Assembly: GCA_900320225.1 (NCBI GenBank)
Contig: ONRL01000056.1
Span: 1 to 37,496 of the forward strand
DNA: 37,496 nucleotides
Reading direction: 5' to 3'
Origin: an uncultured Lentisphaerota bacterium
GTDB lineage: Bacteria > Verrucomicrobiota > Kiritimatiellia > RFP12 > UBA1067
The translations under genes were made by a program, and so were the position numbers. This document shows positions 280 to 6,351 of this stretch, one piece after another. The notes under the pieces were generated by a model. It did no database searches and was not told where the DNA came from. It was given only the letters and a program-made list of their open reading frames with translations. The first letter of the stretch is position 1; each line of letters opens with the position of its first letter.

Positions 280-2197
280 CTACAGCTCGTCGAAGCCGAC
301 GGCGCGCACGCCGCATTCCTTCGCCGTCGAGAGGATCCGCTCGAGCCATTCGGTCTTCATGCTGATCCCCTTCGCGCCGGGCGAAATGCCATGCGAGGTG
401 AGCACGAACGCCACCTTGCGCTCCGCCGCGCGTCGGATGCACTTCAGGATGTCCTCGATGTCGGTGTGGTACGCCTCGCCGGCGATCACCGTGTCGAGGC
501 GGAACTGCCCCTTGGCCTTCTCCGCCGGAATGAACGCACGGTCGACCGTGTGGATCGGCTTCAGGCCCTCCTGCTTCTCGCCCTTCGGGTCGAAGGGCGC
601 CACGTCCTTGTGCCCGCCGCGCACGTGCGCGAACCCTTTCTTCCGGAACAGCTCGTCCGCCTCGTCCGACCGGCGGCAGTTCGGGTAGGCGAAGGACTTG
701 ATCGGGATGTACGCCACGCGGCACGCCTCCCGCTGCGGCTCGATCTCCTCCTTGTAGTAGCGGTCCGCGCCCTTCTTCGCGATCGCCTCGTCGGCGTTCG
801 CGTGCCGGAGCCCGTGGAGGCCCACGGAGTGCCCCGCCTCGGAGAGGCGCTTCATCGCGCGCACGGCCTCGCCGTCGATCGGGCCGCAGACGAAGAACGT
901 CGCGTGCGCGCCGTACTTCTCGAAGACCGGCAGCGCCTTCACCCAGTCGCCAAAGTTGCGGTCGTCGAAGGAGAGGACGAGCAGGCCCGTCTTCTTCTCC
1001 TCTTCCGGGGGCTGGCAGTTCTCAATGCGCAGGTTCGTCACCGGACCGCCCTCGATAAACTTCTTCGAGCGCTTTCCGCCCCATCCCCGGCGATTCCGCA
1101 CGCGCACCCGTTCGAGGTGCTTGCGCGTGCAGTTGCGGAACGTGACGTTCTCGGGATGGCGCGACGCGGGGCTGTGGAACGCGATCGGCTGGAGCGACTC
1201 GAACTGGCAGTCTTCGAAGAGAATGTCGCGGATGCGCCAGTCGTCGGAACGGGCGTTGGAGGTCACGGGCCGCGCGCACTCCAGGAACGCGCACCGCGAC
1301 ACGCGGACGTCCTCGATGTACACGCCCTTCTTGCCCGGAATCCAGGCGGGCGTGAACCCGATGCCGTGCGCCGTTTCGTGGAAACGGCAGTTCTCGACCG
1401 CGACGTCGCGCACCGTACCCGTGCCGATGCCGAAGCGGACGCCGTAGCAGCAGCTCCAGACGTCGCAGTTGGAAATGCGGATGTTCTCGCACGGGTGCTG
1501 TTCGGCGTGGCCCGGCTGCTTGCAACTCGCGCGTATGGCGAAGCCGTCGTCGCCCGTCTTGATCGTGCAGCCTTCCACCGTGACGTTGCGTGTGCAGTCG
1601 ATAGAGAAGCCGTCCGAGTTGGCGATCGTCCGGTCGGCGTCGATCGTCACGTTGCGGATGTCGAGCCCGTCGCAGCAGCGGAAATGCGCCGTCCACGCGG
1701 GCGTGTTGGCAAGCGTCACGCCGGAGAGGCGGATGTTCTTGGAGAGGAAGAAGATCACCATGTGGCCCGGACGGAACCAGGAGCGGTCGGTGGGATGCAG
1801 CTTGAGGCCGTACTTGTACCCAGGGAACCAGCTGTCCTCCTCGCATTCGCCGAAGAACGCGGGGCCGCTGCCGTCGATCACGCCCTCGCCGGTGATGGAC
1901 GCGCCCTCGACCTTGTAGCCGAGGACGAGGTGGCCGCGTACTGCCCTTCAGCACGGCGCCCTTCGCGAGGTGCAGCTCCACGCGCGAGCGGAGCCAGATC
2001 GTGCCGCTCGTCCATGTCCCCGCCGGCACGACCACCCGTCCGCCGCCCGCGGCGTCCGCCACGTCGAGGGCCCTCTGGATGGCCGCCGTGCACGTTTCGC
2101 CCGTGCAGGCACCGTACGCGCGGATGTCGAAATCCGCCGCCGCCGCGGCCAGAGCCGCGCAGCAGGCGATTGCAATTGTCATCGCTGGTTTATTCAT
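280..2197 (-). CDS. Secreted GH28 polygalacturonase-like / polysaccharide deacetylase fusion, interrupted by a frameshift
   Basis: The gene reads from ATG 2197, with AAGGG upstream, to TAG 280. It opens with a signal peptide (residues 1-20) and the GH28 entry segment FDIRAYGACTGETCTAAIQR. The frame breaks at about 1935-1950 and continues one base over as HLVLGYKVEGASITGEGVIDG. The beta-helix then shows NSDGFSID (about residue 194) and TGDDGFAIR (about 215), matching the GH28 NTD and DD motifs. The usual G-H-G histidine is not evident; CCYGVRFG stands in its place. From about residue 405 a NodB-like deacetylase domain follows: LSFDD, HGLRHAN and SFAYPNCRR. A substrate such as pectin-type glycan is inferred from the family. 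The start lies 7 nt after the hexokinase stop, so the two are probably co-transcribed. The GH28 block normally found between VLKGS and GHLVLGY is absent, so the break looks like a deletion. Confidence 0.75.
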
Positions 2198-2204
2198 GGT
2201 GCCC

Positions 2205-3440
2205 TTATTTTATCAAAATACGGACAGCCGCGACGGCCGCGCCGACCATCGGCGCCTCGTCGATGCGGACGATCTCGAACGGAACGTCCGGCACGAGTTC
2301 GGCGATTTCCTTCCGGACGAGTCCGTCGAAATCCACGGTGCTCGTTTTCCAGTAGGTCGAGCCGTCCGCCGTGATGCGCACGGGCGACCGCCCCGCCTCA
2401 GCCGAACGGCGCACGAACGCCGCGAGATGCGCCGCCGTGAGCGAGACCGCGCGCAGGAAAACCGCGCGGACGATTTCCCGCGCGGCGGGAACGTCCTCCG
2501 GCGCAAGGGCCGCCGCGAACGGAGGAGGCAACGAGACATCGCCCGCCCCGAACGCATCGAGATCACGCGTGGAAAGTGATACGCCGTCCAGTTCCGCACC
2601 GTCGATGAGCCCCGCGCGCACGGCAGCCTTAAGAAGCTCGCACCCCACGCCGCCCAGATAGGCCCCCGAAACCATCTTCTCGAACAGCGCTGCCCCCGTA
2701 TCTGGCAAGGTGGCGTCAAAAGCGACGTCGCACGGCGAACGCATCATCTTGTTGCACTCGCCCGATTCGGCGTTGCGGATCGTCCCCTTCTCGACGCAGG
2801 CCACGTTCGTGCCCGTGCCGAGGATGAAGCCGATCTGTCCCGGACATTCCGTGCCCCGACATGAAAGGCCTGCGAGCAGCGTCGCCACCGTGTCGTTCAA
2901 GACCACGACCGGAAGCGGGCCTCCCGCCAGCCGTCGAACGAGCTCGGCGCCCACGCGCTGCCCGATCACCTCCGGTGCCGAGACCTGCTTCGACCAGGCA
3001 ACGAGTTCCGCGTCGCCGTCCGGCAGGGAACGGCACTCGTAGGAAAAGCAATAACCGATGCCCGCGACCGCCGGCTCCAACGCGCGGACGGCGTCCACCT
3101 CCGCCGCAATCGCGGCGTGGAACGCGTCCGCCGAGACGGTGCCGTCCGTTCCCGGCATCCGCGACCGGCGCAGATGCGAGAACACGGGTCCGTCCGGCGT
3201 GAACCGGACGGCGGCCACGCGCAGGTTCGTGCCGCCCGCGTCCACGACGACGACCGGCGCGGAAGTCGCTGGGACGACGGACGAAAAAGAGAGGCACGAA
3301 TCGATCATCCGCAGGGACGACGGCGCGCCGGCGATCGCCGCATCCGCCTCCCCCTCAAATGCGCGCATCACCGCCACGCGGTCCGCGTGCGTAGGCGCGA
3401 AGCCGCTTTCCCTCAAGAATGCCTGTATTTTTTCGTTCAT
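2205..3440 (-). CDS. Hexokinase-family sugar kinase
   Basis: A 411-residue cytoplasmic protein of the eukaryotic-type hexokinase fold, expected to phosphorylate hexoses with ATP. Visible signatures are the phosphate-1 loop VVVDAGGTNLRVA (about residues 62-74), the sugar-binding LNDTVATLLAG, the second nucleotide loop GFILGTGTNVA, ESGECNK, and the small-domain helix KMVSGAYLG. The start was set at MNEKIQAF because AAAGGA lies 7-8 nt upstream; an in-frame ATG 27 nt further up has no such site. It is the first gene of a pair with the GH28-deacetylase, consistent with trapping sugars released by the neighbouring glycosidases. The stretch between GTNVACVEK and RNAESGECNK looks shorter than in relatives, which may be a small in-frame loss or natural variation. 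Substrate specificity cannot be read from the sequence. Confidence 0.85.
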   Translation of the reverse strand: MNEKIQAFLRESGFAPTHADRVAVMRAFEGEADAAIAGAPSSLRMIDSCLSFSSVVPATSAPVVVVDAGGTNLRVAAVRFTPDGPVFSHLRRSRMPGTDGTVSADAFHAAIAAEVDAVRALEPAVAGIGYCFSYECRSLPDGDAELVAWSKQVSAPEVIGQRVGAELVRRLAGGPLPVVVLNDTVATLLAGLSCRGTECPGQIGFILGTGTNVACVEKGTIRNAESGECNKMMRSPCDVAFDATLPDTGAALFEKMVSGAYLGGVGCELLKAAVRAGLIDGAELDGVSLSTRDLDAFGAGDVSLPPPFAAALAPEDVPAAREIVRAVFLRAVSLTAAHLAAFVRRSAEAGRSPVRITADGSTYWKTSTVDFDGLVRKEIAELVPDVPFEIVRIDEAPMVGAAVAAVRILIK

Positions 3441-3475
3441 ACTCATTTCCTTTCGACCTTGGCTCATGGGCGGGA

Positions 3476-4681
3476 TTACAGTTGCTGGCCCTGTCGGTCT
3501 TCATCCGCCAGCGCGTTGAAACGCTTGATGAGCTTGATCTCCTTCGGGTCGTACGGACGATAGGACGGACGGTAGATTTCGTGCATCCACTGCGTGAAGT
3601 CGTAGTCGTCCCCCTCGCCCTTCTCGTACCGCGTCCAGAGCGCGGGCCACGGCTCGCTCGACGACGGATGCCGCCGCGAGCGTACGAGACCCCAGCTCAC
3701 TGCGCCCACGCGCTCGAGGTAGAACAGCGGATAGCACTCCGCGAAGCGGTTGTTGGTGATTCGGTTCATCCACTCCGTGTTGACGAGCGGACGCCCGAAA
3801 CGCCGGCGCAGGTAGGCGATCCGCTTCACCTGGAACTCGAAGTCGCGGTAGCAGTGGTAGCTCACGATGTCCGAACACGCGGCCGCCACGTTCTCCGCCG
3901 GATTGGACTTCCCGCGCCCGAGCGTGGCGAAGAGGTCGGCGGCGAGCGGCTGGTCGGGGTTGACCCGCCAGCCGATCTCGAAGAGCCGCCGCAGGTGCGG
4001 CGCGGCGACCTTTCCGTGGCCGTTGTAGCCCGGCTCGTTCATGACGTTCCAGAAGAGGATGCGCCGGTCGTGCGCGTGCAGGCGCATCACCTCCTCGGTC
4101 ATCTCGTAGAGCTTTTCGGCGTATTCCGGGACGTCAAGGATGTTGTAGCCGATGTCCTTGCCGCCCGTGTGCGGGCTCCGCGCCCGGATGCCCACTCCCT
4201 TGTAGACCGTGGTCTGGTCGCCCATGCGCTTCAGGAAGAAGTTCGCCTTCGAGGGGGCGCAGTCGTTGAAGAGGACCACGATCGCCCGGATGCCATTCCT
4301 CTCGCAGGCGTCGAGGTAGCGGTCGAACCGCTCGAGGAAACCCTCGCGCTCGTAGAGCCACACCTCGAATTGGAGGAAGAGACGCACCGTGTTGAAGCCC
4401 GTCTCCTCCGCCAGCGCCAGCTCGCGCTCCGCCGTCGCGAACCGCTCCTCGAAACCGTGTTCCTGCCACAGGTCGACGAAGTTCACGCAGTCGGACGGAA
4501 CGAAGTTGACACCGCGGATCCACGGCTGGGCGTTGTACCACGCCCACGCCTTCTCCTTCGGCCACGGCCCCGTGCGCCCGCCCTCGCCGCCGAACGCCGG
4601 GAGCACCGCGCTTGCCGCAGCCACGATCACAGCCGCCGTCAGGCATTTTCGAAAGAAGTCTCGCGAATGATGATGCAACAT
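3476..4681 (-). CDS. Secreted clan GH-A glycoside hydrolase (cellulase/xylanase-like)
   Basis: A TIM-barrel glycosidase of about 401 residues. A cleavable signal peptide (basic RDFFRK, then a hydrophobic run ending near AFGGEGG) precedes the barrel. FWNVMNEPG carries the clan GH-A acid/base Glu after Asn, and LVNTEWM carries the likely nucleophile Glu. SYHCY supplies a typical substrate-cleft strand. I chose ATG 4681 because GGGACAAGAG precedes it; an alternative ATG at 4714 would add 11 residues but has no ribosome site. It is a clear paralogue of the protein at 27337-28524, sharing the opening GPW.KE.AW.WY.QPW.RG, the catalytic segments and the C-terminal RPYDPKEI.LIKRFN. Substrate is not identifiable; beta-mannan, xylan or cellulose-type linkages are possible. 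Confidence 0.8.
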   Translation of the reverse strand: MLHHHSRDFFRKCLTAAVIVAAASAVLPAFGGEGGRTGPWPKEKAWAWYNAQPWIRGVNFVPSDCVNFVDLWQEHGFEERFATAERELALAEETGFNTVRLFLQFEVWLYEREGFLERFDRYLDACERNGIRAIVVLFNDCAPSKANFFLKRMGDQTTVYKGVGIRARSPHTGGKDIGYNILDVPEYAEKLYEMTEEVMRLHAHDRRILFWNVMNEPGYNGHGKVAAPHLRRLFEIGWRVNPDQPLAADLFATLGRGKSNPAENVAAACSDIVSYHCYRDFEFQVKRIAYLRRRFGRPLVNTEWMNRITNNRFAECYPLFYLERVGAVSWGLVRSRRHPSSSEPWPALWTRYEKGEGDDYDFTQWMHEIYRPSYRPYDPKEIKLIKRFNALADEDRQGQQL

Positions 4682-4725
4682 ACTCTTGTCCCAACGCAGG
4701 TGGACACGCGTCATTTACCGGAATG

Positions 4726-6351
4726 TCAGCACGATGCCGAAGTTGGGGCGCTTCTCGACGCCGGTTCCACGAGCGGGTCGTCGATGCCGCGTGTTGAGGG
4801 ATCGTAGTTCACGCCCACGTAGAAAACGGGCAGCGAGGCATCGAGCCACGGATTGGCGTATTCTTTCGTCCGCGCCTGCGCAAGCGCCTCCTGAGCAGTC
4901 TTGCCGTACTTGAATTCGAACACGTAGATGCCGCTCTTGTCCGCGAGAACCGCGTCCGCACGCCCGCGCGCGCTCTGCCGCTCGCCGGAGATGTCCGCGC
5001 CGATCAGCTTCATGAAGAGGAGAAAATACCTTTTCGCCTCCTTCTCGTCCTCGATGTGCCACTCGTGCGGCACGGCGGCGAACGCGGCCTTGAGGTTTTT
5101 CTTCAGCAGCGTCTCGATGCCCTTTTCGATCAAATCGTCCTGCGCATCCGCTAAATCCTCGTTCCAGTCAGACATGCCGTTGCGCAACAAAGCGGACACA
5201 TATCCCTTTGCGAGCGAACTCGAGACCTCCTCGTTCGGGATGCCGAGGTCGATGCGTCCGGACGGGCGCACGCGCTTGATCGTGAGATAGCCGCCTTGGT
5301 AGAGCAGCGCGGCCAGCGGCATCGTCTCGGCGTCGCATACGTCGAGTTCCAGCGGATCGACGACCATCCCGTTCAGGTCGGCCGGGATCTCGTCCACAGC
5401 CTTTATGCGGTTCACGATCATCGTTGCCTGTCCGGTCGCTTCCCAGTAGTTGGCGAACTTGCAGGTCTTCAGCGCCTTCCCGAGAGACACGGGGTTGCAC
5501 ACCTTCGCCTCCGAATCGGGCGAGAAGCGGTAACCGTCATACCAGGAGAGAAGCGTCTTCTTCGCCTTGTCAAAGTCCATCCCGTTCTTCGCGGCGAACA
5601 CCTCCACGTTCTCGCGCAGCGGGCCGTCCAGTTCCTCTGGCGTGTAGCCAAGGAGCGTGGCGTAGTCCGGCGACATCGAGAGGTCGGTCAGGTGGTTGAG
5701 TCCCGAAAAGATCGAAAGCTTCGTCAACTTCGTGACGCCCGTCATCATCAGGAAGCGGATGGTGCCTGAGTTGACCTTGAGCTTCTCGTAGAAATCGTGG
5801 AGGACTGCGCGCACTTTCTTGAGCGTGTCGAGGTCGTCGAGGAACTTGGCGACCGGTTCGTCGTATTCGTCGATGAGGACCACGATCTGCCCCGTCGGCG
5901 ACTTCGCGGCGGCAGCCTGGAGAAAGTCGTCGAACTGTCCGGAGACGGCCCCGTCGCCAACGTACGGGACTCCCGCCTGCACACAAAGGCCCCTGACCAG
6001 TTTCGCCAGCTGCTCGATGAAAAGCTCGTACGTCTCGCCGACGGCCCGCGACATCGTGAAGCTGTACACGGGCGTGGGCCTCTCCCACCCTTCCCACGGC
6101 AACTTGTCGATGGCAAGCCCCTTGAAGAGCTCGCGCCGTCCCTCGAACATCGCCTGCAGCGTGGAGAGCATGAGTGACTTGCCGAAACGGCGCGGACGCG
6201 AGATGAAAAGCTGCGCATCTGCGGTGGATGACGCAAGACGGTACAGCAAGTCCGTCTTGTCAACGTACTTTCCCTCTCCGCCGAGAATCAATTTTGGGAA
6301 GTCGAACAGCCCCGTCGTGGGCACCTTGATTTTCTTTTCCGCCGTTTCCAT
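4726..6351 (-). CDS. AAA-ATPase-like / PD-(D/E)XK nuclease superfamily protein
   Basis: A 541-residue protein of the widespread AAA-ATPase-like plus DUF1703 architecture. Residues 1-270 hold a P-loop-like RPRRFGKSLMLSTL and a Walker B VVLIDEYDEP. The C-terminal part has GRADAVLADKSGIYVFEFKYGK (positions about 460-485), giving the D...ExK signature of a PD-(D/E)XK nuclease fold. Family members are common, often multicopy, and have no firmly established role; a defence or DNA-processing role is only inferred. An extended -10 sits 7 nt before the ATG with no leader or ribosome site, suggesting a leaderless mRNA. The last 12 residues (PASRSAPTSASC) are unlike the rest, while another frame over the same bases reads VEKRPNFGIVLTFR, so a small indel near 4755-4765 is possible. 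Confidence 0.85.
   Translation of the reverse strand: METAEKKIKVPTTGLFDFPKLILGGEGKYVDKTDLLYRLASSTADAQLFISRPRRFGKSLMLSTLQAMFEGRRELFKGLAIDKLPWEGWERPTPVYSFTMSRAVGETYELFIEQLAKLVRGLCVQAGVPYVGDGAVSGQFDDFLQAAAAKSPTGQIVVLIDEYDEPVAKFLDDLDTLKKVRAVLHDFYEKLKVNSGTIRFLMMTGVTKLTKLSIFSGLNHLTDLSMSPDYATLLGYTPEELDGPLRENVEVFAAKNGMDFDKAKKTLLSWYDGYRFSPDSEAKVCNPVSLGKALKTCKFANYWEATGQATMIVNRIKAVDEIPADLNGMVVDPLELDVCDAETMPLAALLYQGGYLTIKRVRPSGRIDLGIPNEEVSSSLAKGYVSALLRNGMSDWNEDLADAQDDLIEKGIETLLKKNLKAAFAAVPHEWHIEDEKEAKRYFLLFMKLIGADISGERQSARGRADAVLADKSGIYVFEFKYGKTAQEALAQARTKEYANPWLDASLPVFYVGVNYDPSTRGIDDPLVEPASRSAPTSASC

Follow-up and report, generated by a model that had tools for sequence, protein, structure and literature searches.

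A GH28-like beta-helix domain fused to a NodB-like deacetylase recurs in related Kiritimatiellae bacteria

The window (the whole 37,496-nucleotide stretch of DNA that was analysed) contains a minus-strand open reading frame, positions 1947 to 280, in which a GH28 beta-helix domain runs through a linker into a NodB-like deacetylase domain in a single frame with no internal stop (Table 1). Counted from the GTG at 1881, the protein is 533 residues long. Residues 41–174 match Glyco_hydro_28 (Pfam accession PF00295; 58.7 bits against a cut-off of 22.9) and residues 296–418 match Polysacc_deac_1 (Pfam accession PF01522; 54.8 bits against a cut-off of 23.1). These one-frame matches confirm the order of domains in the original prediction, which had drawn attention to positions 960–1010; this span is the domain junction, on the minus strand, and the motifs singled out there (QPPEEEKKTG, SFDD, HGLRH and SFAYPNCRR) are all present in the translation of that strand.

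Table 1. Features of the GH28–NodB gene in the window
Feature	Positions	Strand	Basis
Original N-terminus with ATG 2197 and first part of the beta-helix; not in frame with the remainder	1933..2197	minus	Sequence; alignment with L024, L020 and L021
Junction of the frame-breaking 71-bp deletion, relative to three relatives	1932..1933	minus	DNA alignment, 71 gap columns
GH28-like right-handed beta-helix domain (open frame extends to 1947)	1015..1932	minus	PF00295; fold match of L024 to 3jur/5olp
Charged 10-residue linker QPPEEEKKTG	985..1014	minus	Translation; short linkers at the equivalent place in the other 22 rows
NodB-like deacetylase with FDD...W signature, ending at the stop codon	280..984	minus	PF01522; model; 7fbw match
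FDD motif, residues 305–307 (SFDD, 972–961)	961..969	minus	79/79 rows
HGLRH motif with H356 and H360	802..816	minus	Both His in 79/79 rows
H497 of LTSHGI	391..393	minus	79/79 rows

The stretch at ATG 2197, MNKPAMTIAIACCAALAAAAADF, resembles a signal peptide by eye, as do the starts of three related loci (L024, L020 and L021). A DNA alignment with these relatives, all of which are intact at this place, shows 71 bp to be missing from the window at about 1932/1933; the ATG 2197 start is out of frame with the remainder of the gene because of this loss. In L020, the 71-bp stretch is flanked on both sides by GCGGC. The loss may be a real mutation or an assembly error. Judged from the sequence, the window copy as it stands cannot yield one exported protein, because the 71 bp are missing from behind the signal-like start.

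Just upstream on the same strand, a hexokinase gene (2205–3467) and a GH5-like gene (3476–4714) lie in an operon-like arrangement, spaced 7 and 8 bases apart. A tblastn search of 24 related loci, several with short flanks only, gave no match to either neighbour at 1e-6. A gene with AAA-ATPase_like and PDDEXK_9 domains (4726–6351) lies among the carbohydrate-enzyme genes of the window. Twenty neighbourhoods of free-standing deacetylase relatives were of mixed content by eye, and gene neighbourhood was set aside as a clue. In a plasmid collection, protein matches were limited to two weak ones (34% and 30%).

A search with the whole protein, with E-values calculated per genome, covered 59 relatives. 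Matches spanning both domains were found in five genomes of the same genus (G003, G004, G005, G014 and G006) at 88–95% identity, with the G014 and G006 matches short of 25 and 50 residues, respectively, at the N-terminal side. Five further genomes (G028, G045, G047, G049 and G051) contain both domains at 58–61% identity in frames of 655–673 residues. Seven two-domain loci from another collection (L020–L026) correspond to these same genomes by frame length and identity and so are not independent support. In total, the fused order with a GH28 or pectate-lyase-like partner occurs in 23 distinct rows and, by our own matching of loci to the genome list, in 21 of the 40 positive genomes, window included (20 without L087). 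The remaining fused rows are more distant, with NodB halves 34 to 73% identical to that of the window.

The original prediction had proposed looking for the same domain order in other genomes and had offered, as an alternative, that two adjacent secreted genes were artificially joined. In all 23 rows the two domains lie in one frame, separated by a short linker of varying letters in which nothing resembles a signal peptide by eye; a methionine occurs within 40 residues ahead of FDD in 4 of them. Recurrence of the order supports the proposed two-domain fusion, and the artificial joining is refuted by the relatives. The GH28–NodB fusion is genuine and recurs in related bacteria.

Comparisons between the window and its relatives give dN/dS values of 0.26 (GH28) and 0.077 (NodB) against L024, and of 0.23 and 0.094 against L020. 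Across the seven pairs computed, neither half exceeds 0.35 and the NodB half is lower in every pair; values for the short linker stretch range from 0.08 to 0.72.

Ten residues of the deacetylase half (F305, D306, D307, W313, H356, H360, P400, R421, H497 and I499) are invariant in all 79 NodB rows, a set that, like the trees, excludes the partial NodB domains of L086, L088, L089 and L094 (of 63). We take the aspartate pair of FDD to be the putative catalytic base and metal aspartate, the two histidines of HGLRH to be putative metal ligands and H497 to be the putative catalytic acid. In classical CE4 enzymes, motif 3 reads R-x-P-Y/F and motif 4 reads D-x-x-D-W. Neither motif was found in any of the 79 rows; the window reads FAYPN, and the invariant R421 sits elsewhere. 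The PF01522 score, the NodB fold, the Asp-Asp of motif 1, the His-x3-His of motif 2 and the histidine of motif 5 place this half in the NodB/polysaccharide deacetylase superfamily. Because motifs 3 and 4 are missing from all 79 rows, it is filed as NodB-like and not as classical CE4.

Modelled alone, the window's NodB half has a pLDDT of 90.8, and the model aligns to the CE4 acetylxylan esterase 7fbw with Z 18.4 (rmsd 2.3 over 177 residues). Solved relatives are remote by sequence, with best E-values of 8e-5 for a single-sequence search and 8.9e-10 for a profile. By Z, the top match is the turret protein of the archaeal Haloferax tailed virus 1 (8qpg; Z 20.3, rmsd 2.5, 200 aligned, 14% identity), a viral instance of a NodB-like fold.

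The GH28 half retains three aspartates (in NTD and DD) that align to D202, D223 and D224 of the Erwinia polygalacturonase 1bhe and that we take to be catalytic; out of 29 rows, 28, 29 and 28, respectively, have them, and L087 is the exception. The same enzyme carries H251 (the GHG histidine) and R280 with K282 (R-x-K), which we presume to be functional residues of polygalacturonases. Among the 29 GH28 rows, equivalents of these were found in none for His, 3 for Arg and none for Lys; the window has Tyr, Gly and Thr at the three places in the alignment to 1bhe. The PF00295 score and the aspartates thus speak for GH28 membership, and this half is not filed as a polygalacturonase because the His/Arg/Lys pattern is not kept. 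Some GH28 rhamnogalacturonases likewise lack these three residues.

A full-length model of L024 (pLDDT 74.4, pTM 0.57) is of moderate quality and uninformative about domain arrangement; its best matches are GH28 enzymes (5olp, E 3.1e-14; 3jur and 5olp, Z 33.5). The L024 frame (L024:2211-4175) lacks seven residues of the GH28 helix, after FFLSK, that the other rows covering that place contain.

Close relatives of the GH28 half that lack the deacetylase (L104–L107, 58–71% identity) indicate that this half can do without it. In L108:3282-5615, a GH28 domain 61% identical to the window's is joined to a GH5-type domain in the deacetylase's place; this GH5 is 57% identical over 344 residues to the GH5 behind the NodB domain of L078. 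On a GH28 tree of 30 rows, which takes in 22 of the 23 fused rows (L087 was not found by its search), the unfused L104–L107 and the GH28–GH5 protein L108 are interspersed among the fused rows. This interspersion suggests that whatever lay behind GH28 was dropped or swapped at about the same junction. The fused label needs 5 changes on this tree against a shuffled mean of 7.1, and 11 of 500 shuffles were as low, consistent with loose clustering.

The NodB half alone matches at least 40 of the 345 genomes of the class at an E-value of 1e-15 or better. Such genome counts are lower bounds, as up to 8 candidates were scored per genome in the class and up to 7 among 387 genomes of the phylum. Removal of copies left 63 distinct deacetylase-bearing ORFs, whose partners we grouped by BLAST clustering of the sequence before or after the NodB domain; each frame was taken as the whole stretch between two stops, and its first residues are therefore possibly not protein. 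The GH28/pectate-lyase-like cluster is the largest (23 ORFs); Pfam was run on 12 of these, window included, and assigned 11 to GH28 and L087 to a pectate-lyase family only. Next comes a second NodB domain in front (10 ORFs, Pfam run on 9), accompanied by GH39 in L031 and by Glyco_hydro_cc in L032. Smaller groups consist of a common unnamed partner with one weak, below-cut-off match to BNR_2 (4 ORFs), GH5 behind NodB (4, Pfam run on 1) and a 656-residue tail with no Pfam match in the one of 3 ORFs that was run. Single ORFs carry a BD-FAE esterase (in a frame cut at its 5' end), a metallophosphoesterase, a DUF4838 domain, an unnamed N-terminus and, in Planctomicrobium, from a different phylum, a sulfatase (L034:2393-4681). 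The remaining 14 frames are short, and 11 of these are complete deacetylase domains that stand alone. The window's own genome encodes a second fusion (L002:1486-3639) with a C-terminal deacetylase (38% identity) and an N-terminal part that has no Pfam match and looks BNR/sialidase-like by eye.

At an E-value of 1e-25, at least 41 of the 387 phylum genomes match, 30 of them outside the class. The outside-class matches listed (38, in these 30 genomes) all lie in free-standing frames of 229–309 residues, which suggests that the free-standing deacetylase is probably the older form and that fusion occurred mainly in this class, with Planctomicrobium an exception. On a NodB tree of 59 rows, 7 changes are required for the GH28 label, and well-supported branches force 4 of these; the full set of 11 architectures requires 17, against a possible minimum of 10. 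A quick tree of 79 rows, 20 of them from outside, needs 20 changes for 12 labels. These change counts do not separate gains from losses, and long branches meet in the trees, where L087, L060, L062, L034 and others are unsurely placed.

Fusions of a hydrolase and an esterase are a known kind, of which we read the GH28 pairing as a variant. The termite-gut metagenome enzyme Xyl, described as GH11-CBM36-CBM36-CE4 (PDB 7AX7; PMC9165906), resembles the fusion here in that a plant-polysaccharide hydrolase and a C-terminal CE4/NodB esterase domain form one protein, and its CE4 domain aligns to our NodB model with Z 16.2 (rmsd 2.9, 180 aligned). It differs in having a GH11 xylanase in place of GH28 and two binding modules in between, and the fusion here lacks CE4 motifs 3 and 4. 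PgaB (PMC5933820) joins a deacetylase to a GH153 domain in poly-N-acetylglucosamine (PNAG) biosynthesis, with hydrolysis depending on the active deacetylase. The shared trait is a deacetylase and a glycoside hydrolase acting on one polymer within one exported protein, where export and a common polymer are presumed for the protein described here; PgaB differs in its biosynthetic role, its N-terminal deacetylase and its other type of hydrolase (PMC5933820). The GH28 exo-polygalacturonases and galacturonidase 3jur, 2uve and 5olp share the beta-helix fold and, by alignment to 1bhe, the three aspartates of our GH28 half; they have no deacetylase domain, and the half described here lacks the His, Arg and Lys of 1bhe. 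Passages of PMC11672655 name a deacetylase for Prevotella, separately from Kiritimatiellia, and passages of PMC6083626 place GH28 and CE4 in different proteins. Among the titles and abstract openings listed from the open-access literature, we found no description of a GH28–NodB fusion or of such a partner-swapping NodB subfamily.

We lean toward a reading in which the gene encodes a genuine carbohydrate enzyme of two domains that is probably exported and whose GH28 cutting and NodB deacetylation act on one polymer. Supporting this are the fusion itself, its recurrence, dN/dS values under 1 for each half, the predicted folds of the two domains and the conservation of the putative catalytic deacetylase residues. 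Kiritimatiellae-type gut bacteria would export the protein, as its signal-like start suggests by eye. The GH28-like beta-helix may then break a glycosidic linkage of an acidic polysaccharide resembling pectin, and the C-terminal, presumably metal-dependent NodB-type deacetylase would strip acetyl groups, possibly the O-acetyls of pectin, from that polymer or from pieces of it, which would bring the two reactions together at one place. Acetylated pectin is a plausible substrate and only a guess, because the GH28 half lacks the polygalacturonase His/Arg/Lys and the NodB subfamily also sits on unrelated partners; for the latter reason the deacetylase need not be a pectin enzyme.

That same partner range gives some force to a competing account, less probable in our judgement yet a serious one, in which the deacetylase is a general-purpose module, not functionally tied to the GH28 reaction and fused to many enzymes, mainly for co-export or for action on a common acetylated glycan of plant, host or bacterial origin. 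Its Pfam-supported partners include GH28, GH5, a second NodB (preceded in one case by GH39 and in another by Glyco_hydro_cc), BD-FAE, DUF4838, metallophosphoesterase and sulfatase, and both the matches listed outside the class and the 11 complete domains within it are free-standing. The partners are, however, unevenly represented, with 23 of 63 distinct ORFs in the GH28-type cluster against 10 in the next largest, and the GH28 pairing extends from genus to order. Absence of the classical CE4 motifs 3 and 4 from all 79 rows could instead mean that the deacetylase half has no catalytic activity and functions in sugar binding, which we regard as improbable given that the putative metal triad and catalytic histidine are invariant and that this half has the lower dN/dS in all seven pairs. 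An artefact, in which a deletion or an assembly error brought two neighbouring secreted genes together, might be suspected from the 71 bp missing in the same gene; we reject this scarcely credible explanation, as other genomes carry the same junction with a short linker.

Beyond the preferred reading of a two-domain carbohydrate enzyme, a broader and more speculative proposal, which we put forward tentatively, is that the NodB subfamily with FDD...W and without classical CE4 motifs 3 and 4 might be a new carbohydrate-esterase family. Once free-standing, it would in Kiritimatiellae have turned into a plug-in module attached time and again, by one end or the other, to six or more unrelated kinds of domain (GH28, GH5, second NodB, BD-FAE esterase, DUF4838 and metallophosphoesterase), with the partners marking the acetylated polymers eaten by these gut bacteria and the GH28 form acting as a single protein that deacetylates and hydrolyses pectin or rhamnogalacturonan. 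Many pectinases are hindered by acetyl groups, and an enzyme that combines cutting with deacetylation in one protein would offer a compact means of breaking down plant fibre. Partner-swapping by one deacetylase subfamily would likewise offer a route to functions for unknown Kiritimatiellae enzymes from ruminant guts.
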